From Brevundimonas bullata (lineage in GTDB: Bacteria > Pseudomonadota > Alphaproteobacteria > Caulobacterales > Caulobacteraceae), in contig NZ_JACHLM010000003.1 of assembly GCF_014207965.1 (NCBI RefSeq), positions 62,001 to 126,000 on the forward strand: 64,000 nucleotides of DNA, given 5' to 3'. Positions 3,938 to 40,708 of this stretch are shown here, piece after piece. A program made the translations under genes and the position numbers. How positions within the stretch are numbered: position 1 is the first letter of the stretch; each line of letters begins with the position of its first letter. The notes beneath the pieces are model-generated. The model was not told the DNA's origin, made no database searches, and saw only the letters and a program-made list of their open reading frames with translations.

Positions 3938-4825
3938 TCAATAGACACGAACGCCGGCGGCTCCACGCTTCCTCATGCCCGGATGCACGAGGGCGCCGCA
4001 ACGTTCAACAAACTGCGTCCGTATCTCCTCGGGGATGATCGGAACGTCCATGGTCGTTCCGTTGAACTTGAACGAAATCGGCGCGCCCAGGGCCAGGGGC
4101 TCAAGCACCTCGTCGGCAATCGCAAACCCATAGCCCAACATCGCCTTCTCTCCGGCGCCGCTCACCTCAGGAGAGCCCGTTCTCTCGGCACTGCCGATCC
4201 GTGTCTCGAGCGCGGGCTGGGGCCACGAATTTGCCGGGTCGAAGCCCCGCACGCTGACGCCGATCGAAACGGACTCACAGGAGAGGATCACCGTCGGCGT
4301 GTAAGCGCCCGGGCTTTGAGACGACGGCACAAGATACGTGATAGCCGGCACGCGGCTGGATAAAGACATGACCTGCCAATGGCTGCCCGCCCCGACGCCG
4401 TTGGCGGCGGGCAAAGGAAGAACAGGAGCCTTGCTCTCGGGCTTGTCCGACACCGCTGCGACCAGGGCAGCGATGCTCGCTGCGATAAGAACTCCAACGA
4501 CCATAGCCGGCCTCCAAACTTTCGATGCCCATGCGCCACCCGCAGGGCGTGGTTCGGAGGGATGATCGCCCAGAGCTCCGCCTTCAATGCCGATTAATTT
4601 GGTTCGATTTTCTTGGGGAAGCCCCTGCTCTTGCTCACCGACCAGACGTGCAAGTTCTCGACTGCTGACCGCACCGGTTTTGCGTCGTGCCGAGCGGAGC
4701 CGCTCATTCACGACGTTCACTGACAGCCCCTCAGAAGTCGCTATCGTTTTCGCGGTGTGACCTTGAGCGAGAAGTCTCAACAGTCGGCGTTCTTGTTCCG
4801 TCAGGCGGACAAGCTGTGGGGTCAC
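3938..4825 (-). CDS. LuxR-type HTH regulator with a transmembrane segment and periplasmic domain
   Basis: A 295-residue protein starting at GTG 4825. Residues 1-65 are a LuxR/GerE helix-turn-helix (LTEQERRLLRLLAQGHTAKTIA, then LSVNVVNERLRSARRKTG) placed at the N-terminus rather than at the usual C-terminal end. A charged linker follows, then one hydrophobic helix at about 104-125, then a soluble region of about 170 residues that would be periplasmic. The topology resembles ToxR/CadC one-component regulators but with a LuxR-type DNA-binding domain. It is inserted antisense between the DUF721 and DsbA genes and converges on DUF721 with a 28-base gap. The sensed signal and targets are unknown. 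Confidence 0.75.
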   Translation of the reverse strand: MTPQLVRLTEQERRLLRLLAQGHTAKTIATSEGLSVNVVNERLRSARRKTGAVSSRELARLVGEQEQGLPQENRTKLIGIEGGALGDHPSEPRPAGGAWASKVWRPAMVVGVLIAASIAALVAAVSDKPESKAPVLPLPAANGVGAGSHWQVMSLSSRVPAITYLVPSSQSPGAYTPTVILSCESVSIGVSVRGFDPANSWPQPALETRIGSAERTGSPEVSGAGEKAMLGYGFAIADEVLEPLALGAPISFKFNGTTMDVPIIPEEIRTQFVERCGALVHPGMRKRGAAGVRVY

Positions 4826-5148
4826 GGCAGAACTACCATAATTTGCATCTCGACTCTTTTAGGTCGCGATCGCCCCCGCTCAATCCAATATCCTTGCGGA
4901 ATGGGTCCGATTTTTTTGTGAGATGGACATGACGAGCTCGTCAAGCCGAGCTTGTCATTCACGAGGTTTCCCCGGCGGCCATAGGTCCCGCCCCGCGCTG
5001 AACGCTTGGCTTTGAGGCCTCCGATAGGATATCCGCGACATTCGCGGCCTAATATGGCCGCATCTGTTTTCGACAAATAACCGGATTGCGCGCGTCCGAT
5101 GGATCGCGTCATTCTTCAACGTCACAGTATCTCGACCAAGGACGATCC
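4826..5148. other. 323-base intergenic region upstream of the DsbA operon
   Basis: No convincing gene is seen. A perfect 12-base palindrome GACGAGCTCGTC lies at 4931-4942, followed by a partial inverted copy, and an A/T-rich stretch occurs near 4908-4917. The region must hold the promoters of the LuxR-type gene (minus) and the DsbA-smc genes (plus). An antisense 96-codon ORF here has unnatural composition and no RBS. Confidence 0.4.
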
Positions 5149-5781
5149 ATGGCTACGTTCCGTTACGCTTCGATGAGCCGCCGCGCGGCCCTGACCGCCG
5201 CCGCCCTGGCCGCCATGGCCACGGTCGCAGGCTGCACCGCCAAGACCGGCGGCGAAGCCAAGGGCGACATGGCCCTGGGCGCCGGGCCGGACGCCAAGGT
5301 CACGGTCGTGGAATACGCCTCGATCACCTGCGGCCACTGCGCCGTCTGGAACGACGAGGTCTGGCCCGAGTTCAAGACCAAGTATGTAGACACCAAGAAG
5401 GTTCGCTACGTCTTCCGCGAATTCCCCACCCCGCCGCAGGACATCGCCGTCGCCGGCTTCCTGATCGCGCGCTGCGCCGGTGAGGACAAATACTTCGACG
5501 TCATGCACGACATCATGGCCAGCCAGAAGGAATGGGCCGCCGGCGTTCCGCCGCGCACCACCCTGTACCGCACCGCCGCCGCCGCCGGCCTGAGCCAGGA
5601 GCAGACCGAGGCCTGCATCACCGACAAGGCGGCTATCGAAGAGATGAGCAACCGCATCAAGGCCGGCATCGACGCCGGCGTGGACAGCACGCCGACCTTC
5701 ATCATCAACGGCGTCAAGGTTCTGGACAGCAGCCTGTCGGGCCTGTCGGAAGCCATCGACGCGGAACTGGCCAAGAAATAA
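5149..5781 (+). CDS. DsbA-family thiol oxidoreductase, lipoprotein, copy 1
   Basis: A 210-residue periplasmic thioredoxin-fold oxidoreductase. The N-terminus has a basic region, a hydrophobic stretch and the lipobox VAGC near residue 28, so it is probably lipid-anchored. The active site is ITCGHCAVW (CGHC, near residues 60-65) and the cis-Pro loop is STPTF near residue 185. The start at ATG 5149 follows AAGGACG at 5138-5144; the open frame upstream lacks a signal sequence. It is first of three tandem paralogues, 24 bases before the next. It should oxidise or isomerise periplasmic cysteines, probably with a membrane DsbB-type partner that is not in this window. Confidence 0.88.
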   Translation: MATFRYASMSRRAALTAAALAAMATVAGCTAKTGGEAKGDMALGAGPDAKVTVVEYASITCGHCAVWNDEVWPEFKTKYVDTKKVRYVFREFPTPPQDIAVAGFLIARCAGEDKYFDVMHDIMASQKEWAAGVPPRTTLYRTAAAAGLSQEQTEACITDKAAIEEMSNRIKAGIDAGVDSTPTFIINGVKVLDSSLSGLSEAIDAELAKK

Positions 5782-5805
5782 TTTCAACCAAGCGGGGGCG
5801 TGGAC

Positions 5806-6408
5806 ATGTTGAGGAAGCTGGCAGGGGCTGCGGCCCTGAGCGTCGTACTGGCGCTGGCGGGCTGTAGCGGCAAGGACGCGGCCCCCGCCGAGGGCGACAT
5901 GGCCCTGGGCGCGCCCGAGGGCGCCAAGGTGACGGTGGTCGAATACGCCTCCGTCACCTGCTCCGGATGCGCCGCCTGGAACGAGCAGGTCTGGCCCCAG
6001 TTCAAGGCCAAGTACGTGGACACCGGCAAGGTGCGCTACGTCTTCCGCGAATTCCCCACCCCGCCGCAGGACGTGGCGGTGGCCGGCTTCCTGGTGGCGC
6101 GCTGCGCCGGCGAGGACAAATACTTCCACGTCATCGACCAGATCATGCGGTCCCTGCCGGAAATGCATGCCGGAACGCCGCCGCGCGACATCCTGCTGCG
6201 CACGGCGCGGGAGGCCGGGTTGAGCGAAGCCCAGTTCCAGACCTGCGTGGCCAACCCCGAGGCCGTCGCCGCGATGGAACAACGCATCAAGGCCGCGCGA
6301 GACGCCGGCGTGACCGGCACCCCGACCTTCATGGTAAACGGCCAAACGGTCGACAGCTCGCTGGACAGCCTGTCGCAACGCATCGATTCCCTTCTGGTGA
6401 CGAAATGA
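5806..6408 (+). CDS. DsbA-family thiol oxidoreductase, lipoprotein, copy 2
   Basis: A 200-residue paralogue of the preceding gene, sharing long near-identical stretches such as VRYVFREFPTPPQD and RCAGEDKYF. It has a short signal with lipobox LAGC near residue 19, the redox motif CSGC instead of CGHC, and the cis-Pro loop GTPTF. ATG 5806 is preferred over an in-frame GTG at 5800 because GGGGGCG lies about seven bases before it. Its last codons overlap the start of copy 3 by four bases (ATGA), so the two are translationally coupled. The changed CxxC dipeptide suggests a different redox potential. Confidence 0.85.
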   Translation: MLRKLAGAAALSVVLALAGCSGKDAAPAEGDMALGAPEGAKVTVVEYASVTCSGCAAWNEQVWPQFKAKYVDTGKVRYVFREFPTPPQDVAVAGFLVARCAGEDKYFHVIDQIMRSLPEMHAGTPPRDILLRTAREAGLSEAQFQTCVANPEAVAAMEQRIKAARDAGVTGTPTFMVNGQTVDSSLDSLSQRIDSLLVTK

Positions 6409-29838: not shown

Positions 29839-29914
29839 GGGCCTGTAGCTCAATGGTTAGAGCCGACCGCTCATAACGGTCTGGTTGGGGGTTCGAGTCC
29901 CTCCAGGCCTACCA
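29839..29914 (+). tRNA. tRNA with CAU anticodon, probably tRNA-Ile2 (lysidine-modified)
   Basis: A 76-base cloverleaf with encoded CCA. Acceptor GGGCCTG pairs with CAGGCCT (G1-T72 wobble), D-arm AGCTCAATGGTTAGAGC, anticodon stem ACCGC-TCATAAC-GGT, T-arm GGGGGTTCGAGTCCCTC. The CAT anticodon could be elongator Met or Ile2. The ACCGCTCATAACGGT anticodon arm is typical of alphaproteobacterial Ile2, whose C34 is changed to lysidine by TilS. Its 3' end is the attachment site of the downstream element. Confidence 0.93.
29898..29914 (+). repeat. attL (tRNA 3' end)
   Basis: TCCCTCCAGGCCTACCA, the T-arm/acceptor end of the tRNA including CCA, is repeated exactly at 39516-39532. Flanking bases differ on both sides (G/C before, A/C after), so the core is 17 bases. 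Confidence 0.9.
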
Positions 29915-29975
29915 AACTCCCTCGGGAGCCAGTGATAGCGGGATTTTCCAGTCTTTTCGGCCTTCTACGACCATG

Positions 29976-29999
29976 GACTGTGACACAAGACTGTGTCAC
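29976..29999. promoter_or_regulatory. putative integrase/Xis arm sites or operator
   Basis: GTGACACA (29980-29987) and its inverted copy TGTGTCAC (29992-29999) flank a four-base spacer just before the likely integrase start. The 12-mer GACTGTGACACA (29976-29987) recurs at 39442-39453 near the other end of the island. Confidence 0.5.
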
Positions 30000-30008
30000 C
30001 AGACGGGA

Positions 30009-31688
30009 ATGGAAGCCGTGCCTGGATGCAACCACCTCTACCGACGCGGAGCCGTTTATTGGTTCCGCCGCAGGGTCCCCGGGGACGTCGCGAAGTCCCT
30101 TGGGACATCACAATGGCGGCTTAGCCTCGGCACGAAGGACTTTGATGAGGCGAAGCGCCTCGCCCGTCTCCGCAGCGTGTCCACGGATCAGCAGATCACC
30201 GTCGTGCGTGCGCGCAACATGGGGAAGGTCTCCCCTCCCCTGTCCAAGCAGGAAGCTGAAAAGCTGGCGCAGTCCTGGATCGCCGACGTGCTGGAGTGGG
30301 ACGAGGCATTCCGCCTCGGTCGGCCGGGCGAAATCAAAAGCGCAGCCCTATGGTTGGAGGAGGAAGCGGCCAACTACCGAGAAACCCTAGGAACCCTCGA
30401 CACCGCCGCCGTCGCTCAGGAGGTGGCCGAGACCCTGGCGAAGGCTGGCCTCTGGTACCCCTCAGGTGACCCAAGTCGAAACCAGATAGCCCTGGCGCTT
30501 CTGAAGGCCCGCGTGCGCCTCGTCGAGCTTATGGAGCGTCGCTTGGGCGGAGAAGTAGTCGAAGTCGCAACCCCCGTTATCATGTCGCCCGCGCCATCCC
30601 TGCCGGTCGGAATGACCGTGGCGGAACTTGTCGCCGCGTTCCGGGCCGAGCGGGTGGCTCGGCACGGCGAGGAATCCACCGACCGGAAGTATTCCCACAT
30701 CTTTTCCGGCCTGGAGGAGGCCTTGGGGAACTCCAAGCCCATCCGATCAATCACGCGGGCCGACATCCGCGAAGTCCGCACCCTACTCCAGCGTGTGCCG
30801 AAGTTTGCCACGCGCCGCTATCCAGGGCTGACGTTGTCGGAGGCGGCCGAACGGGCTGACGAAGACGGCGGCGAACGCATCGCCCCGACCACCGTCAACA
30901 CCTACCTCCAGAACCTCGCCGCCGTGTTTAACTGGGCTGTGGGCGAGGAACTCCTCGACCGGAATCCGGCGCAGGGCATGGCGCTGTCGGCGAGCCCGAA
31001 CGTGCAGCGACGCGGCTTCACGACCGAAGAACTGCAACGCCTATTCAATGGCATGGCCCCGCTAGCTGAAGGGGAACAACCCTGGCGTTTTTGGATACCG
31101 GCTCTAGCCCTCTTCAGTGGAGCACGAGCGGGCGAGTTGGCCGCACTCCGAAAGGCAGACTTCGTCATAATCGACGGCGTCCAGTGCATGCGTTTCACCA
31201 AGTTCGACGACAGGGGTCGCCGCATCGAGGGTCGCAGCCTGAAGACTGAAGCAAGCGCACGCACTGTGCCGATCCATCGCGCCGTCCTGGACGCTGGATT
31301 GATGGACTATGTTGCCACCCTCGCCGATCACTCCGGGCTGGCCTTTCCCTCGCTGCAGCCGGGACCGGACGGCAAAGCCTCGCACTACCTGTCCAAATGG
31401 TTCGGGGACTTCCGCCAGGACATGGGTGTCGGCGATCCAGCCACCCCGTTCCATAGCTTCAGACACGGCTTCCGCGACGCCACCCGAGAGGCGGGTATCC
31501 CCGGCGAAATCGCTGACATGCTAGGGGGTTGGACAACCCAAGGGATCGCAACCCAATATGGCAACAAGGGCCGCGTGGCGCTTCTAAGCCGCGAACTGGC
31601 CAAGGTCTCCTACGCCCCCTTCACACTGCCCCTCCCGGCTCCCCCTAGGACGCCCCTGGACGCCCTTCCAAAGGACCGACGAACTTGA
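30009..31688 (+). CDS. tyrosine site-specific integrase
   Basis: A 559-residue integrase that should integrate and excise the island at the tRNA. The N-terminus (LYRRGAVYWFRRRVPGDVAKSLG) is the DUF6538-type beginning seen in many alphaproteobacterial integrases. A SAM-like core-binding domain follows at about 200-330 (TVAELVAAFRAERVARHGEE). Catalytic residues: Arg in SGARAGELAAL near 373, HSFRHGFR (H-x-x-R) near 481, and Tyr in TQYGNKG near 516. ATG 30009 is preferred; an in-frame ATG at 29973 would translate through the inverted repeat. It is adjacent to attL and reads into the element. Confidence 0.93.
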   Translation: MEAVPGCNHLYRRGAVYWFRRRVPGDVAKSLGTSQWRLSLGTKDFDEAKRLARLRSVSTDQQITVVRARNMGKVSPPLSKQEAEKLAQSWIADVLEWDEAFRLGRPGEIKSAALWLEEEAANYRETLGTLDTAAVAQEVAETLAKAGLWYPSGDPSRNQIALALLKARVRLVELMERRLGGEVVEVATPVIMSPAPSLPVGMTVAELVAAFRAERVARHGEESTDRKYSHIFSGLEEALGNSKPIRSITRADIREVRTLLQRVPKFATRRYPGLTLSEAAERADEDGGERIAPTTVNTYLQNLAAVFNWAVGEELLDRNPAQGMALSASPNVQRRGFTTEELQRLFNGMAPLAEGEQPWRFWIPALALFSGARAGELAALRKADFVIIDGVQCMRFTKFDDRGRRIEGRSLKTEASARTVPIHRAVLDAGLMDYVATLADHSGLAFPSLQPGPDGKASHYLSKWFGDFRQDMGVGDPATPFHSFRHGFRDATREAGIPGEIADMLGGWTTQGIATQYGNKGRVALLSRELAKVSYAPFTLPLPAPPRTPLDALPKDRRT

Positions 31689-31777: not shown

Positions 31778-31842
31778 CTCAGGTCTACCTCAGGTAACCC
31801 TCAGGTCCCTCAGGTCCCTCAGGTCCCTCAGGATCACCTGAG
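31778..31842. repeat. iteron-like CTCAGG array
   Basis: CTCAGG starts at 31778, 31789, 31800, 31809, 31818 and 31827, spacing 11, 11, 9, 9, 9. The last units are a perfect 9-base tandem CTCAGGTCC, and an inverted CCTGAG closes the array at 31837-31842. It lies between the integrase and the first cargo gene. Confidence 0.8.
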
Positions 31843-34482: not shown

Positions 34483-34989
34483 ATGGCCGACATTCTCGCC
34501 TTCACCGCCCGTCCCGGCACTGCCCGTCGGCCCAGCAAAAACGGCGCATCCGTCCTGCCGCTGGGGCAGTTGGCCGAGCTTCAGGCTCGCCATGCCATCA
34601 ACCTCCTCCTTGCAGCCCAAAATAGGCTCGAGGACTGGAACGCCCACCGCGCCCGCCGACGCGCTGAAGCCGACGCAGCCAAGGCTGCTGCCCGTCGCAT
34701 GGTAGGGCTCACAGGTGCAGGCGACCTGAGCGCGGCCCTACATAGCCGTGCCTTCAAGATGGCGCTTGCCTGCTCTCGCGAGAGCCTCGACCGAACACGT
34801 GCGGTGCAAGACCTCCACGCAGCCCAAAGTGCGGCGGGTGCTGCCCTAGCCCGGCTAACGCGGTGCGAGGCCCGCCGGGTCTACGGCGACGCCTTCCCCG
34901 ACCTAACGCCTCAACGGGTCGGCTCGGCAGTCAGCGCGTTGCTGCGGGACCACCGGGCAGCCCTGCGGTTTGCGCGGGAGGCCCTGTGA
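34483..34989 (+). CDS. helical protein of unknown function, coupled to a resolvase
   Basis: A 168-residue Ala/Arg-rich, mostly helical protein with a disordered start (ADILAFTARPGTARRPSKN). Two long amphipathic helices follow (AELQARHAINLLLAAQNRLEDWNA and about 60-95), with a conserved-looking Cys/Arg segment LTRCEARRVYGDAFPDLTPQRVG near 125-148. No domain is recognised. Its TGA overlaps the ATG of the serine recombinase by one base (TGATG), so both are translated together; it might be a recombination accessory or regulatory protein. Confidence 0.65.
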   Translation: MADILAFTARPGTARRPSKNGASVLPLGQLAELQARHAINLLLAAQNRLEDWNAHRARRRAEADAAKAAARRMVGLTGAGDLSAALHSRAFKMALACSRESLDRTRAVQDLHAAQSAAGAALARLTRCEARRVYGDAFPDLTPQRVGSAVSALLRDHRAALRFAREAL

Positions 34990-35534
34990 TGGCGGTCGTT
35001 GGCTATGCCCGCGTGTCATCCATGGGGCAATCTCTGGAGGTTCAAGAGGAGGCTCTGAAGGCTGCGGGGTGCGAGAAGGTCTTCGCTGAGAAGCGGACGG
35101 GAACAACCCAGGAGGGCCGCGAAGAACTGAGGCGCGCTCTGGAGTATGTGCGTGAGGGCGACACTTTCGTCGTCAGTCGCATCGACCGCCTCGCCCGCTC
35201 GGTGAGCGACCTGGGGGAGATCGTAGCGGTCCTCACCGCCAAGGGCGTGAGTTTCCGCGCTCTCCAGCAAGGAGAGTTCGACACATCTGCCGCGACCGGC
35301 CGGTTCTTCCTCCAGCTTCTCGGTGCGTTCGCAGAGTTCGAGACCTGTCTTCGTCGCGAACGCCAAATGGAGGGGATCGAAAAGGCAAAAGCCGAAGGGC
35401 GCTACAAGGGTCGGCCGAAGAGCGTGGACACAGCCACCATCCGCCGCCTCCATGCCGAGGGAGAGAAGCCTGCGCACATCGCCAAGCGCCTGGGGGTGGC
35501 CCGCTCGACCGTCTACGAGGCCCTGAAGGCCTAG
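34989..35534 (+). CDS. small serine recombinase (resolvase/invertase family)
   Basis: A 181-residue resolvase/invertase. The catalytic domain begins VVGYARVSSMGQSLEVQ (nucleophile Ser 9 or 10) and has VSRIDRLARSVSDLGEIV near 70 and the FLQLLGAFAEFETCLRRERQ E-helix near 115. The C-terminal DNA-binding HTH (TIRRLHAEGEKPAHIAKRLGVARSTVYEAL) is complete. Length and order match Hin/gamma-delta type enzymes, so it is probably active. Its role in the island (dimer resolution or inversion) is not evident, as no clear inverted res/hix sites were found. Confidence 0.9.
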   Translation: MAVVGYARVSSMGQSLEVQEEALKAAGCEKVFAEKRTGTTQEGREELRRALEYVREGDTFVVSRIDRLARSVSDLGEIVAVLTAKGVSFRALQQGEFDTSAATGRFFLQLLGAFAEFETCLRRERQMEGIEKAKAEGRYKGRPKSVDTATIRRLHAEGEKPAHIAKRLGVARSTVYEALKA

Positions 35535-35728
35535 ATGCCTTGCTTCTGGACGTGCTCGTCCTGCCCCCTGCTTTTTTTGCAGTCTCCCCCAAGCATCCCT
35601 TGAGGTTCTCCCCTGGCAACCTGAGACGACTTAGGGCCACGGCGCGGCTCGGCTGAGCTCGGTCGCCAGTTGACCTCGCCCCCTGACCACCGCCCCCCCC
35701 CTGCCGCCCAGTTAGTCAGCAAGTGCCC

Positions 35729-37180
35729 ATGACCCCAGCGACCACCAAACTGCGACCAGCAGCTCAGTACCTACGGATGTCCACAGATGGGCAACAGTAC
35801 TCCCTGGAGCACCAGCAGGCAGTCATCGCGGGTTATGCCCAGTCCGCAGGATTTGAGATCGTTCAGACATACACGGACGCTGGGAAAAGCGGAGTGACCG
35901 CTCAGCGCAGGGAAGGACTCAGTGCGCTTCTCGCTGACGTGGTGACCAAAGAAGCGCCGTACACGACACTATTGGTTTTGGATGTGAGCCGCTGGGGCCG
36001 GTACCAAGACCCCGATGAGGCCGCTCACTACGAGTTCCTATGCCGGTCCTCTGGCGTTGAGGTGCGGTACTGCGCAGAGACTTTCGAACCGGGATTGGCG
36101 GGCTCGGTGTTCAAGGCCCTTAAGCGCGTGATGGCTGGCGAGTACAGCCGCGAGTTGTCCGCTAAAGTCCGAGTGTCGAAACAGCGCCACGCCTTGGCTG
36201 GCAACGCCCCCGGGGGGACCTGTCGCTACGGGTTTGCAAGGCAAATCGTCAATCCAGACGGCAGCTTCGGCAAGGTACTGGAGCGCGGCGAGCGCAAGCA
36301 GCGTCCTGAGCAGACCCTCCAGTTCGTCCCGGAGGGACCGGAGCAAACCTCAGTACTTCGGCGGATATTCCGCCTGTACCTGAATGACCACTTGGCGATG
36401 TCCGAGATTGCCCGCCGCCTGAACGCTGCGGGAAAGTTCTGGCTTGATGGTACGCCCTGGAACAAGACCCGCATTTCCGAGGTCCTCCGGTGCGAACTGG
36501 TGACCGGCCGCCAGCCCTTCGGGAAGACGGCGTGCTTCCTAGGCGAACGCGTCTACCACAATCGCGACACTTGGGGGTCCGTTCAGGTCTTCCCTCCCAT
36601 CGTGCCGGTTAAAACCTACGAACGGGTCCAGGCCCGCTTGGCCGCCCTAAACGGCAGGCCAGGAAAAACCGATGAGGAGATGCTTTCAGACCTACGCGCC
36701 ATTAAGAAAAAACAGGGACGGGTCACGGCAGCTATGATCGATGCTGACCCTCGGTGCAGCGCGAGCGCAACATATTTTAGTCGGTTCGGCACCCTGTCAA
36801 ACGCCTACAAACTCGCAGGCTTCCGCTACGCCCCAAGGGAGAGAGGAAGACGAGAAGACGGGTCTCGCTTGTCGCGAGAAGAAGTCCTTGATCGTCTTCG
36901 CGCGCTTCATGCCGAGAAGGGTCGGATTAACATGCTGCTCTGTCGCGACGACGACAGGCTGCCTCCGCTGGACTGGCTTCGTTGGGAGTTCGGAAGTCTG
37001 AACGAGGCGTTTGACGCCGCAGGGGTGCCTCATAGAAGTAACGGAGGACCTCGGCGAAATCCCGCACATAGTGTGCCCCCAAGGTCACCCGCTGGAAGCG
37101 GACGCTCCGAGGTTTTCTTGGGGCCGCACGGCGGTCGCTACATTATCACCTCAGGAGGGCGCAAAAAGTACGGCTGTTAA
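35729..37180 (+). CDS. serine recombinase with recombinase domain and repeat-type C-terminus
   Basis: A 483-residue recombinase; ATG 35729 is used, with an in-frame GTG at 35723 as alternative. The resolvase domain has YLRMSTDGQQYS (Ser 18) and LDVSRWGRYQDPDEAAHYEF. A Recombinase domain follows (APGGTCRYGFARQI, then RRIFRLYLNDHLAMSEIARRLN and WNKTRISEVLRCELVTGRQP). The C-terminus carries two copies of a unit of about 50 residues at about 317-368 and 380-434, each ending in an FG-x-x-N-x-A-x-x-x-AG pattern, like homing-endonuclease-associated repeats. The Cys-rich zinc ribbon of most large serine integrases is not seen. Confidence 0.85.
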   Translation: MTPATTKLRPAAQYLRMSTDGQQYSLEHQQAVIAGYAQSAGFEIVQTYTDAGKSGVTAQRREGLSALLADVVTKEAPYTTLLVLDVSRWGRYQDPDEAAHYEFLCRSSGVEVRYCAETFEPGLAGSVFKALKRVMAGEYSRELSAKVRVSKQRHALAGNAPGGTCRYGFARQIVNPDGSFGKVLERGERKQRPEQTLQFVPEGPEQTSVLRRIFRLYLNDHLAMSEIARRLNAAGKFWLDGTPWNKTRISEVLRCELVTGRQPFGKTACFLGERVYHNRDTWGSVQVFPPIVPVKTYERVQARLAALNGRPGKTDEEMLSDLRAIKKKQGRVTAAMIDADPRCSASATYFSRFGTLSNAYKLAGFRYAPRERGRREDGSRLSREEVLDRLRALHAEKGRINMLLCRDDDRLPPLDWLRWEFGSLNEAFDAAGVPHRSNGGPRRNPAHSVPPRSPAGSGRSEVFLGPHGGRYIITSGGRKKYGC

Positions 37181-37502: not shown

Positions 37503-37601
37503 ATGAAAGCTCTCCTTCGTATGACGATTTCGGTGACGCTTAAGGTGAATATCGCAGCCATCCTTCTTGGGGTTGCGGCAATCATCAAGGCGCTTCACTG
37601 A
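37503..37601 (+). CDS. 32-residue hydrophobic peptide
   Basis: ATG 37503 follows GAAGGAA with eight bases between. The peptide has a basic start (MKALLRMTISVTLK) and one membrane helix (VNIAAILLGVAAIIKALH). Five bases after the TGA comes a good hairpin terminator, which supports a real short transcript. Its size and shape are like type I toxins or small membrane regulators. It is the first ORF upstream of the kinase pair. Confidence 0.5.
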   Translation: MKALLRMTISVTLKVNIAAILLGVAAIIKALH

Positions 37602-37605
37602 GACT

Positions 37606-37629
37606 TGGGGAGTCTTTAGGGGCTCCCCA
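37606..37629 (+). terminator. Rho-independent-like terminator
   Basis: TGGGGAG (37606-37612) pairs with CTCCCCA (37623-37629) around a ten-base loop, followed by TTTCT. It separates the 32-residue ORF from the kinase gene, whose GTG lies 17 bases on. Confidence 0.6.
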
Positions 37630-37645
37630 TTTCTCTGGTGCCCCC

Positions 37646-38497
37646 GTGGACACGCTGAGAGGGAACGTCCTATTGCTGTCCGAAGCCTCGGGGGAGAGCG
37701 ACTTGGCCGACATCAATGACACCCATCGCGTTGGACTGGCGCAGGTCTTGGGTGGGGCCGTGGCCTTCAAGGCCGGAAATATTAACGACACCTATAGGGG
37801 CGTTATTCGCACCGACACTGGCGACCGCCCGGCGATTATCAAAGACCTAGCCCCCCGCGAACTAGCCAATGAAGTTCTTGCCGCTGGTTTGGGGCTTTCC
37901 GCCGGTCTTCCAATCCCGCCCGCGTATCTGGCCTTCGCATCCACGGACCGACTATCCACCAAGTACGGGCCGGAACTGGAAGGCGGGCGGCTGGTTTTTG
38001 CCAGCGTCGATGTGGGACAGCCGCAAGTAGCCATGCTGTGCCGTGAGCGAGGCAATGTGGCGGTGTTGGGTCGACTGGCGGCGTGGGCAGAAGCCGGTCG
38101 GCTATATGGCTTCGACGCTCTGGTCGCCAACATCGACCGCCACGCTGGAAACCTCCTATTCAGTGGCGACCAAGAAGTTTGGATGATCGACGACGGCCAC
38201 TGCTTTACCGGCCCCGAATGGGGTCATAGTGACCTCATGCCACCCGACATACGCGTGACAAATCGGCTGACAGAGTGGCTCACACCTGTCCTTGCCGACC
38301 GTCAGCGACAGCTTGCCGCCCATAGGGCTGCGGAACTGGCAGGAGATGTGGGGCTGGACTTCGCCGCCCTGGCGACCGCCAACTACTTGGCCGAGCTTCT
38401 GGACGACGGTGATTTCATGGCGGTAGTCACCTTCCTGCAAGGTCGTCAGCCCCATACTGCCGGGCTTGCGGCCGAAGCTCTGGGAATGCTGGCATGA
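37646..38497 (+). CDS. HipA-like Ser/Thr kinase
   Basis: A 283-residue protein with the kinase core of HipA-type enzymes but without the N-terminal HipA domain. The candidate ATP Lys is in PAIIKDLA near residue 65, a helix-C Glu is in ANEVLAAG near 75, the catalytic loop is ANIDRHAGNLLF near 160-171 (D and N present), and the metal-binding loop is WMIDDGHCF near 179-187. HipA and HipT phosphorylate tRNA synthetases and stop growth; the target here is unknown. GTG 37646 is the only upstream start. The stop overlaps the next gene by four bases (ATGA), so both are made together. Confidence 0.75.
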   Translation: MDTLRGNVLLLSEASGESDLADINDTHRVGLAQVLGGAVAFKAGNINDTYRGVIRTDTGDRPAIIKDLAPRELANEVLAAGLGLSAGLPIPPAYLAFASTDRLSTKYGPELEGGRLVFASVDVGQPQVAMLCRERGNVAVLGRLAAWAEAGRLYGFDALVANIDRHAGNLLFSGDQEVWMIDDGHCFTGPEWGHSDLMPPDIRVTNRLTEWLTPVLADRQRQLAAHRAAELAGDVGLDFAALATANYLAELLDDGDFMAVVTFLQGRQPHTAGLAAEALGMLA

Positions 38498-39417
38498 GAC
38501 GCCCCTTCAGCCTTCACGATTTCCCCTCAGTGGAGGGCACCATCGCCTGCCGCTGGGCTCCCGTATTGCTTTCCCCCATTCTCGACAGCCCCGAGAAGCT
38601 CGTCATCGGCGTGGTGGCCGCGAACGGCGGGGGCTTCCACATCGAACGTGCCAACGCCTTAAATCGTCTCCAGTGCTTGTTCGGCAAGGCCGCTGAGACT
38701 GCCATTTTCGCTGCCGAGGTAGCGTTTGAAGAACTCGCCGAAAACTTGTCGGAAAGCGGCCATGAGGCTCTGAGAGAGCGGGCACTAGTCTTCACCGGCG
38801 TCACTTTGGGGGAGGTGCGGGGCGGAGAAGGCAACTCATTACGGGATGTTGCCCGGACGTGGATGAGCGCACTGTCCTCCCTCTACGAATACCGGGCAGA
38901 CACTGCCGTCGAAGTTGTTGCCATGCAGGAGGCAGCAGAGGAGCTAGGCGCGCGAGGCGGTGATCGCCTTCCGATTATGGTGCTAGAGGACGTGGTCGCT
39001 AGAAATCCAGCATACGGGCACTTCTTCAGTGAGGAAATCCGGATGAAGAGGCAGCGCCGATCTAAAGTCGCGGACATCGGCATCGACTTCTCATCACCGG
39101 ACCTCGTCGCAAATTTTGCCACTCTAGGCCCGTCGGCCCAAGCGAAATCGGTGGACCGCATCAAGCGAAAACTCTTCGATCTGATCGTGCGACGCGACGC
39201 CGAGCAAACGACATTCCTGCCCAGAGCCCACGAAATGATCGTCTACAGCCCTGGCATCATCGACCCGCTCATCTCTGAGAAGCAACGAGATCAGTTGGAT
39301 GAGGTGCATGACGAACTGGGCGAGCAATCAAAGCGAGAAGAGATCGGCTTCCTGCCCGTCACCGGCGTCAGCGACATTACCCAGCGCATCTTGCAGACGG
39401 CGGCCGGACACGCCTAA
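38494..39417 (+). CDS. partner of the HipA-like kinase, unknown function (possible DUF3037-like N-terminus)
   Basis: A 307-residue protein coupled to the kinase by a four-base overlap. The first 110 residues (IACRWAPVLLSPILDSPEKL, VIGVVAANGGGFHI, NALNRLQCLFG) resemble DUF3037-type proteins that often neighbour HipA-like kinases; this is from memory and weak. The middle is helical and acidic; the C-terminal half (VDRIKRKLFDLIVRRDAEQT, EMIVYSPGIIDPLISEKQRD) matches nothing I know. No HTH is visible, so it is not a normal HipB antitoxin. It is the last gene before attR. Confidence 0.7.
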   Translation: MRRPFSLHDFPSVEGTIACRWAPVLLSPILDSPEKLVIGVVAANGGGFHIERANALNRLQCLFGKAAETAIFAAEVAFEELAENLSESGHEALRERALVFTGVTLGEVRGGEGNSLRDVARTWMSALSSLYEYRADTAVEVVAMQEAAEELGARGGDRLPIMVLEDVVARNPAYGHFFSEEIRMKRQRRSKVADIGIDFSSPDLVANFATLGPSAQAKSVDRIKRKLFDLIVRRDAEQTTFLPRAHEMIVYSPGIIDPLISEKQRDQLDEVHDELGEQSKREEIGFLPVTGVSDITQRILQTAAGHA

Positions 39418-39515: not shown

Positions 39516-39532
39516 TCCCTCCAGGCCTACCA
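39516..39532 (+). repeat. attR
   Basis: TCCCTCCAGGCCTACCA, an exact copy of the tRNA 3' end at 29898-29914. No tRNA body precedes it, so it is the remnant left by integration. Confidence 0.9.
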
Positions 39533-39820
39533 CCCTCTCTGTCGAGACCACTTAGAACTGGCTCCAAACCAGCTAAGAGTGGCTCAAACGCAGATTACAC
39601 CCAATCGAGCTCGCCCTAGAAGTGTCGGACTTTGACTCATCTAGGACGTTCAGAAGGTCTGGTTTCCGGAACCGATCTTAAAGCTCAGGATATCGTAAGC
39701 GAGTAGCAGTGTCGGTTCGACTAGGCGTCGCGGCTCCTGCGCGCTTGGTCGGATGCGGCCCGGCGCGCAGGAATGCACGCCGGGCCGAGGCTTGTTCCAA
39801 TGGCAACGGGGGGGGCGTGG

Positions 39821-40708
39821 TCAGAAGGTCAGGGTCTCACCATCGGCGGGGATACGGACCCGCTCTTCAATGCCGTTCTGCGCGACGTAGTCCCGCAGGT
39901 CGGAGCGGCTCAACGTCATGTGGTTGATGGCGTCCATGTGAACGGCCACGATGGTCGCGTCCGGCGCGGCCTGTGCGGCGTGAAGCACGTCGTCCTTGCT
40001 CATGATGATCGAGCCGGTGAAGCCTTTCATGCGGGCCTCGCCGGTGTTCAGGACGATCACGTCGGGCGCGAATTGCTCAAGACTCTGATCAACCTCGCTG
40101 TGCCAGATGGTATCGCCGGCGAAGTAGACGGTGGGCGACCGAGGCGCCTGGAAGACGACCCCCATCGCCTCGCCGAGCCCCGCTTTGAGCGCCTCGTTGG
40201 CATACATGGCGTCGTTGCCGTGCTGTCCGCCGACCTTGGTCAGGTTCACGCCCTTGAAGTCGGTGTTGACGCCCAGGATGCGGACATCGGTGTAGCCCTG
40301 TCTGCGCACCATGGCGGCGTCGGCCTCGTGCTGCACGAATAGGGGAATATCCTTGCGGACAAACTCGTGCTCGCCGCCGTCCCAGTGGTCAAGGTGGGTA
40401 TGGGTTACGATCACCGCGTCGACCCCCGCCATCACCTCCTCCGTCGTCATCGGCAGATCCACTAACGGGTTGCGTTGCTCGCTGTGGAATGTCCCTTCGA
40501 AGCCGGGATAGGCGCCCTTCGGCGCCAGCAGCGGATCGACGAGGAAGGTCTGGCCCGCATAGGTGATCTTCGCCGTGGCGTTGCGGATGTGCTGCATCTG
40601 CACCGGCTCGGCCGCCGGCGCAGGATCGGGGGCGGTCTGTGCCGCGGCGCTTGTCGCCCCGAGGGTCAAAGCGAGCGCGATAGCGCGGATGATTGTCGTG
40701 GGCTGCAT
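39821..40708 (-). CDS. periplasmic metallo-beta-lactamase-fold hydrolase (UlaG-like)
   Basis: A 295-residue secreted metal hydrolase. A signal peptide ends SAAAQTA near residue 25. The MBL signature THTHLDHWDGGE (HxHxDH) is near residue 103, with further metal ligands in GGQHGND, YFAGDTIWHSE and HMDAINH, an intact set. The domain order is of the UlaG/L-ascorbate-6-phosphate lactonase branch, whose members act on varied substrates. ATG 40708 has GGAG upstream. It is divergent from the GlxA-type regulator, which may control it. Confidence 0.88.
   Translation of the reverse strand: MQPTTIIRAIALALTLGATSAAAQTAPDPAPAAEPVQMQHIRNATAKITYAGQTFLVDPLLAPKGAYPGFEGTFHSEQRNPLVDLPMTTEEVMAGVDAVIVTHTHLDHWDGGEHEFVRKDIPLFVQHEADAAMVRRQGYTDVRILGVNTDFKGVNLTKVGGQHGNDAMYANEALKAGLGEAMGVVFQAPRSPTVYFAGDTIWHSEVDQSLEQFAPDVIVLNTGEARMKGFTGSIIMSKDDVLHAAQAAPDATIVAVHMDAINHMTLSRSDLRDYVAQNGIEERVRIPADGETLTF

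Follow-up and report, generated by a model that had tools for sequence, protein, structure and literature searches.

A HipA-like kinase and its probably DUF3037-type partner on a tRNA-Met island of Brevundimonas bullata, a probable diverged relative of HipAD

HipA-like kinases encoded next to DUF3037 proteins have been published as anti-phage modules. According to the excerpts of the two reports used here, deletion of the HipA kinase from the Retron-Sda1 operon abolished defence against Bas51, deletion of DUF3037 was toxic, the reverse transcriptase and non-coding RNA were dispensable, and kinase + DUF3037 pairs are called PDC-M66 by PADLOC (PMC12548924). DS-6, renamed HipAD, combines a HipA-like kinase with a DUF3037+DUF1829 protein; according to predictions the two bind one another as well as DNA, and a predicted catalytic residue was required for defence (PMC13092281). 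We analysed a 64,000-nt stretch of the Brevundimonas bullata genome (hereafter, the window) in which a HipA-like kinase gene is followed by the gene of a 307-residue partner at one end of a tRNA-Met island. The published modules make this pair less strange, and we think it probable that it is a diverged relative of HipAD/DS-6 (PDC-M66), in which the kinase would be a toxin and the partner, a DUF3037-type protein in disguise, would restrain it until infection. The kinase motifs are intact, the two genes are tightly linked and they lie on an island; in predicted models, the domain order of the partner is that of a DUF3037 partner.

With HipAD/DS-6, PDC-M66 and the Retron-Sda1 pair, the window pair shares a HipA-like kinase with a non-HipB partner, an island location and a predicted N-terminal DUF3037-like domain followed by a C-terminal domain, a layout that comes from models only. 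In its case, by contrast, neither the DUF3037 nor the PDC-M66B model matches the partner, the kinase is marginal to PDC-M66A, the C-terminal domain (C-domain) is ERCC1/XPF-like in prediction with no match to DUF1829, and the loci of the partner family are mostly alphaproteobacterial. For scale, the PDC-M66 models scored DUF3037 pairs at expect values (E) of 3.2e-23 (partner at locus L009) or 1.6e-14 and 2.6e-14 (L064), and an alphaproteobacterial DUF3037 pair (L015) at just 8e-6 and 0.015. A new lineage of the kinase + DUF3037 system that escapes the PADLOC and Pfam models tested is in our view the best explanation. The pair is likely homologous to HipAD and would work alike; because the published family models fail, we do not file it as a member of PDC-M66 or DUF3037. 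The likeness to hipBA extends to the kinase motifs and the two-gene module, whereas the window partner has no recognised helix-turn-helix, the kinase has only 274–283 aa and the order is kinase, then partner. The hipBST, hipIN, hipJS, hipMP and hipRF systems, as described in excerpts of PMC8262856, likewise have small kinases and varied, often DNA-binding, putative antitoxins, but the window partner has neither a HIRAN or resolvase domain nor any other that Pfam recognises. hipBST comprises three genes (HipB-HipS-HipT), whereas two are conserved here and the partner has no Pfam match. DUF3037 is not named in the main text of PMC8262856, as far as the excerpts extend, and among the matches listed from the HipA, DUF3037 and HipAD literature, mostly non-subscription, we recognised no title as this partner lineage.

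The initial annotation, made from the window's letters, had proposed a HipA-like kinase core from two motifs, ANIDRHAGNLLF and WMIDDGHCF. Both are present and the kinase motifs are intact. K66, E76, D164, N169 and D182 were invariant across all 31 aligned kinases (window kinase included), and a set of ten kinases, made up of that of the window and nine whose partners are of different types, retained the FD, DR, N and D columns. The window kinase reads IDDGHCF where most relatives read IDHGHCF; the Asp of this motif, which we take to bind metal, is retained. It matched Pfam HipA_2 (PF20613) at E 5.8e-5 (22.9 bits, under the gathering score of 27), and 30 of the 31 aligned kinases, again including the window's, matched that family at E ≤ 0.01. 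Searched by sequence against solved structures, it gave a photosystem protein (E 0.47) as the best match, with HipT at E 0.77. Of its two start candidates, the TTG, 9 nt after an AGGG, is better spaced for ribosome binding, and the resulting length agrees with that of database entry P0121. Both genes look to be under purifying selection when compared with a Brevundimonas vesicularis locus, with mismatches at the three codon positions amounting to 22/17/62% (kinase) and 31/22/63% (partner).

Searching genome contigs, we found relatives of the partner at 36 other loci, alphaproteobacterial by their titles. A kinase match lay directly upstream in 34 of them and was full-length in 32; the partial ones were split over two frames (L020) or comprised the 3′ part only (L022). 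At the two unpaired loci, the contig begins 250 nt before the partner frame (L018) or, on our reading of the sequence, a transposase-like frame lies within 700 nt upstream of the partner (L029). Each of the 34 pairs had a partner start codon within −4 to +7 nt of the kinase stop (for L033, from the printed sequence), and a start codon permitting the 4-nt overlap was available in 26. Both genes were also present at all five loci from a viral collection, and the Rahnella aquatilis HX2 plasmid PRA1 carries them too (small-set E-values of 2e-28 for the kinase and 2.8e-34 for the partner). Homologues thus do co-occur, in support of the coupling that the initial annotation had proposed. Of 142 class genomes, the source genome alone yielded the partner, and a DNA search showed the pair to be single-copy there; HipA_2 turned up in 6 of 385 genomes of the class and 31 of 398 of the phylum (source genome counted in both). 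This patchy, rare distribution and the mobile and defence neighbours described below disfavour a housekeeping origin of the partner.

Scans of the partner against Pfam (nothing at E ≤ 1), PADLOC and NCBIfam (a single chance-level match, E 0.073) gave no significant match, and hence no helix-turn-helix was recognised; the absence of such a family from Pfam and NCBIfam results agrees with the initial annotation. A protein search returned 159 relatives at E ≤ 0.001 (120 of them listed), whereas annotated phage genomes gave none at that threshold and solved structures searched by sequence gave none that was convincing (best E 0.18). An AlphaFold2 model from 38 sequences (mean predicted local distance difference test score (pLDDT) 84) consists of two parts with a low-confidence join at residues 131–154. 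Its C-terminal half resembles the ERCC1/FAAP24 fold, with no catalytic ERK-type motif of ERCC4/XPF nucleases visible. Foldseek found no match in the PDB at E ≤ 0.001, the best being Hef (0.035). Rab GTPases, response regulators and CdiA-CT/CdiI, which appeared outside the XPF and restriction-enzyme groups, were taken as generic matches.

We compared the partner with a long alphaproteobacterial DUF3037 protein, itself the partner of a sister kinase, whose model (mean pLDDT 88) runs through three strands, two to three helices, a strand, a helix, a low-confidence stretch, and then helix, strands, helix, strand, helix, strand and helix. With small differences, the partner model has the same order and is collinear with it over both domains. 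In a viral structure library, the top two matches of both models were the same two unnamed proteins (all four E ≤ 7.6e-6). Profile comparison of the two families paired partner residues 21–81 with residues 7–66, the DUF3037 core, and adding two or four divergent relatives gave E 6.5e-4 and 1e-4, respectively. The extended N-domain alignment scored 39.5, above all 60 shuffles (best 20.2). In addition, two intermediates (L080 and L083) aligned with the window partner family over 262 columns (E 4e-8). These comparisons suggest that the partner is probably a strongly diverged DUF3037-type protein, and they lend substance to the 'weakly DUF3037-like' N-terminus of the initial annotation, although Pfam gives it no score.

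Sister kinases were examined in 33 loci with HipA_2 fetched from class and phylum genomes. The gene adjoining the kinase encoded a DUF3037 protein in 22 cases and a protein related to the window partner in four (L076, L078, L080 and L083); it encoded neither in seven (L054–L057, L079, L082 and L085; L057 also lacks a kinase by our own profile). Eight of the 22 DUF3037 genes match by construction, since they are themselves members of our DUF3037 alignments (A3 and A4), having first been found with Pfam's own model. Nine of the 22 (L067–L075) lie in frames of 131–233 aa that match the first domain only. Conversely, a HipA_2-type kinase was found beside 12 of 13 DUF3037 genes (nine by kinase profile, L015 by Pfam, and L008 and L016 via the phylum HipA_2 set), leaving L014 without a confirmed neighbouring kinase; the HipA_2-first and DUF3037-first samples overlap. 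At L054 and L056, HipA_2-matching kinases are followed by another type of gene, whose N-terminal region is similar in both.

Several results weigh against a DUF3037-type partner. Pfam DUF3037 (PF11236) at its gathering score matched none of 38 aligned partners (window included), nor did divergent relatives of the family match it. The unextended profile comparison was weak (E 0.0032, probability 10%, score 29.3 against 26.7 for the best of 60 shuffles), and the bridge from L080 and L083 to all DUF3037 proteins scored lower than 2 of 60 shuffles, for which reason we do not count it as evidence. These points favour an unrelated partner, in which a separate fold family would have replaced DUF3037 and the resemblance would reflect a generic alpha/beta order. 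Further, the profile alignment spans only about 60 N-terminal columns, the C-domains of the two families do not align by sequence, and canonical DUF3037 (A3) did not align with the partner family (E 0.56). The predicted template modelling (TM) scores of the partner and DUF3037 models were 0.50 and 0.54, and the shared viral-library matches had low whole-chain TM-scores, 0.33–0.39, at root-mean-square deviations of 10–14 Å. The DUF3037 protein's own C-domain ranked restriction enzymes above ERCC1 in structure comparison. PADLOC gave nothing for the partner at E ≤ 1, PDC-M66B included, and PDC-M66A matched the kinase at E 0.015 only. However, elements collinear over both domains, common top matches in the viral library and an extended profile that passed its shuffle control speak against this reading, and we consider an unrelated partner improbable. 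Separately, the DUF3037 C-domain of the A4 family (L015:1483–2295) keeps D168 and D183-L-R185 invariant within a predicted fold like that of restriction enzymes, for which reason some of these proteins may be active nucleases.

If the pair is a HipAD relative, the kinase would act as a toxin held in check by the 307-residue partner until infection. The N-terminal DUF3037-like domain would bind and silence the kinase, as suggested by Sda1 and by some sister kinases whose partners consist of just that domain. The ERCC1-like C-domain, its nuclease motif lost, would bind DNA, either for autoregulation or for sensing phage DNA. Infection would then free the kinase to phosphorylate a host protein, perhaps one of translation, and growth would stop before the phage multiplies. 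In a more specific form, which we regard as speculative and rather unlikely, the DUF3037-like head would clamp the kinase while the ERCC1/FAAP24-like pseudonuclease tail reads phage DNA that is branched or replicating; once DNA is bound, the clamp would open and the kinase, set free, would shut the cell down. A HipA-type kinase would then be coupled directly to a sensor of DNA structure, in a lineage undetected by PADLOC models. More broadly, a recently recognised kinase-based phage defence would extend to mostly alphaproteobacterial loci missed by PADLOC and Pfam models, DUF3037-type partners would seem broader than their Pfam model, and the proposed division of labour between a silencing N-domain and a DNA-reading pseudonuclease would make the trigger of HipA-type defence kinases approachable through truncations and domain swaps.

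The module could instead serve the island itself, as a toxin–antitoxin pair that arrests or kills cells losing it, with phage defence incidental. A HipAB system stabilising a genomic island has been reported (PMC8978831, in excerpt), the window pair lies within a 9.6-kb island with attachment (att) repeats and an integrase, and Phage_integrase was the commonest neighbour family at related loci (9 of 135). Against this, the closest characterised relatives protect against phage, according to the excerpts of PMC12548924 and PMC13092281, and several neighbours at related loci are defence genes; we hold island addiction to be an outside chance as the main role, and it is compatible with phage defence. 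Nor does the partner have to be an antitoxin: its ERCC1-like domain could recognise DNA and bring in or switch on the kinase, the target being a phage or repair protein. The predicted ERCC1/FAAP24-like fold fits such an adaptor, and so does L052, where the kinase frame is intact beside a partner split between residues 128 and 152, near the predicted linker, by a transposase-like insert (4595–5962). This locus also bears on the HipAD-like reading: it fits a sufficient N-domain but could equally mean a dead locus, and a strict toxin–antitoxin interpretation must invoke a working N-domain fragment. The stop carried by the partner of L028 is likewise a difficulty for that reading. An adaptor nevertheless sits poorly with the toxicity of the DUF3037 deletion in the characterised sister system (PMC12548924, in excerpt), which is what the loss of an antitoxin should cause, and with the nine sister kinases whose partner frame matches the first domain only, and it seems improbable to us. 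Broken copies (kinase split or truncated in L020 and L022 and missing at L029; partner interrupted in L028 and L052) were too few and too balanced to serve as a toxin–antitoxin signature.

The initial annotation had placed the pair at the cargo end of its tRNA island, and this was confirmed (Table 1). The island extends from the tRNA-Met to an imperfect copy of its 3′ end (22 of 25 nt identical), and its final two genes ahead of the right repeat, at the end distal to the integrase, are those of the kinase and the partner. It is an insertion, since among 11 loci examined in other congeneric genomes, four (L087, L095, L096 and L097) are empty sites with right-flank-like sequence directly after the tRNA (71–134 nt). 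The G+C content is 61.6% in the kinase and 59.3% in the partner, compared with 68.1% in window positions 40000–64000.

Table 1. Coordinates of the kinase–partner pair and its island in the window
Feature	Position	Strand	Remarks
tRNA-Met (CAT)	29839..29914	+	Island integration site
attL-side repeat	29898..29922	+	3′ end of tRNA
Integrase	29973..31688	+	DUF6538 + Phage_integrase match below cut-off
HipA_2-type Ser/Thr kinase core	37646..38497	+	283 aa from GTG 37646, or 274 aa from TTG 37673
Kinase motif residues			K66, E76, N162-x-D164-R165-H166, N169, D182 (by alignment)
Kinase stop/partner start overlap	38494..38497	+	ATGA, 4 nt
Partner, 307 aa	38494..39417	+	N-domain DUF3037-like, linker, C-domain ERCC1/XPF-like (predicted)
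Partner domains (residues)			~17–126 DUF3037-like; 131–154 low-confidence linker; ~156–307 ERCC1/XPF-like, nuclease motif not visible
attR-side repeat	39516..39540	+	~100 nt after partner gene

Around the related loci, 218 predicted neighbour open reading frames (ORFs; at least 100 aa, within 4 kb, by crude gene calling) contained no family present at more than 5 of the 36 loci, and a third conserved gene was therefore rejected. Among the best 25 of 132 Pfam families in 135 neighbour ORFs were Phage_integrase (9) and GmrSD_N (3); among the best 25 of 68 PADLOC families were HEC-05 (3), E1-E2 and capP (2 each), and HmaB and several methyltransferase models (1 each). These counts are raw, with no background control. 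Of six long neighbour ORFs scanned apart, four matched HmaC or type IIG/DrmMI models. Four proteins of the window's own island were scanned with PADLOC, and none had a match at E < 0.01. The 32-residue membrane peptide that the initial annotation had noticed just upstream of the pair has an ORF (37503–37601) but no convincing counterpart at any of the 36 loci (lowest tblastn E 5.7), and we discarded it as a third component.

The island further encodes a Bro-N protein and, with the integrase, three recombinases: a resolvase-type recombinase with a helix-turn-helix end (34863–35534) and a serine recombinase (35723–37180) bearing two HNH_repeat stretches, which are homing-endonuclease-associated. 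A 9-nt tandem repeat with CCCTCAGGT units lies at 31798–31832, just past the integrase.
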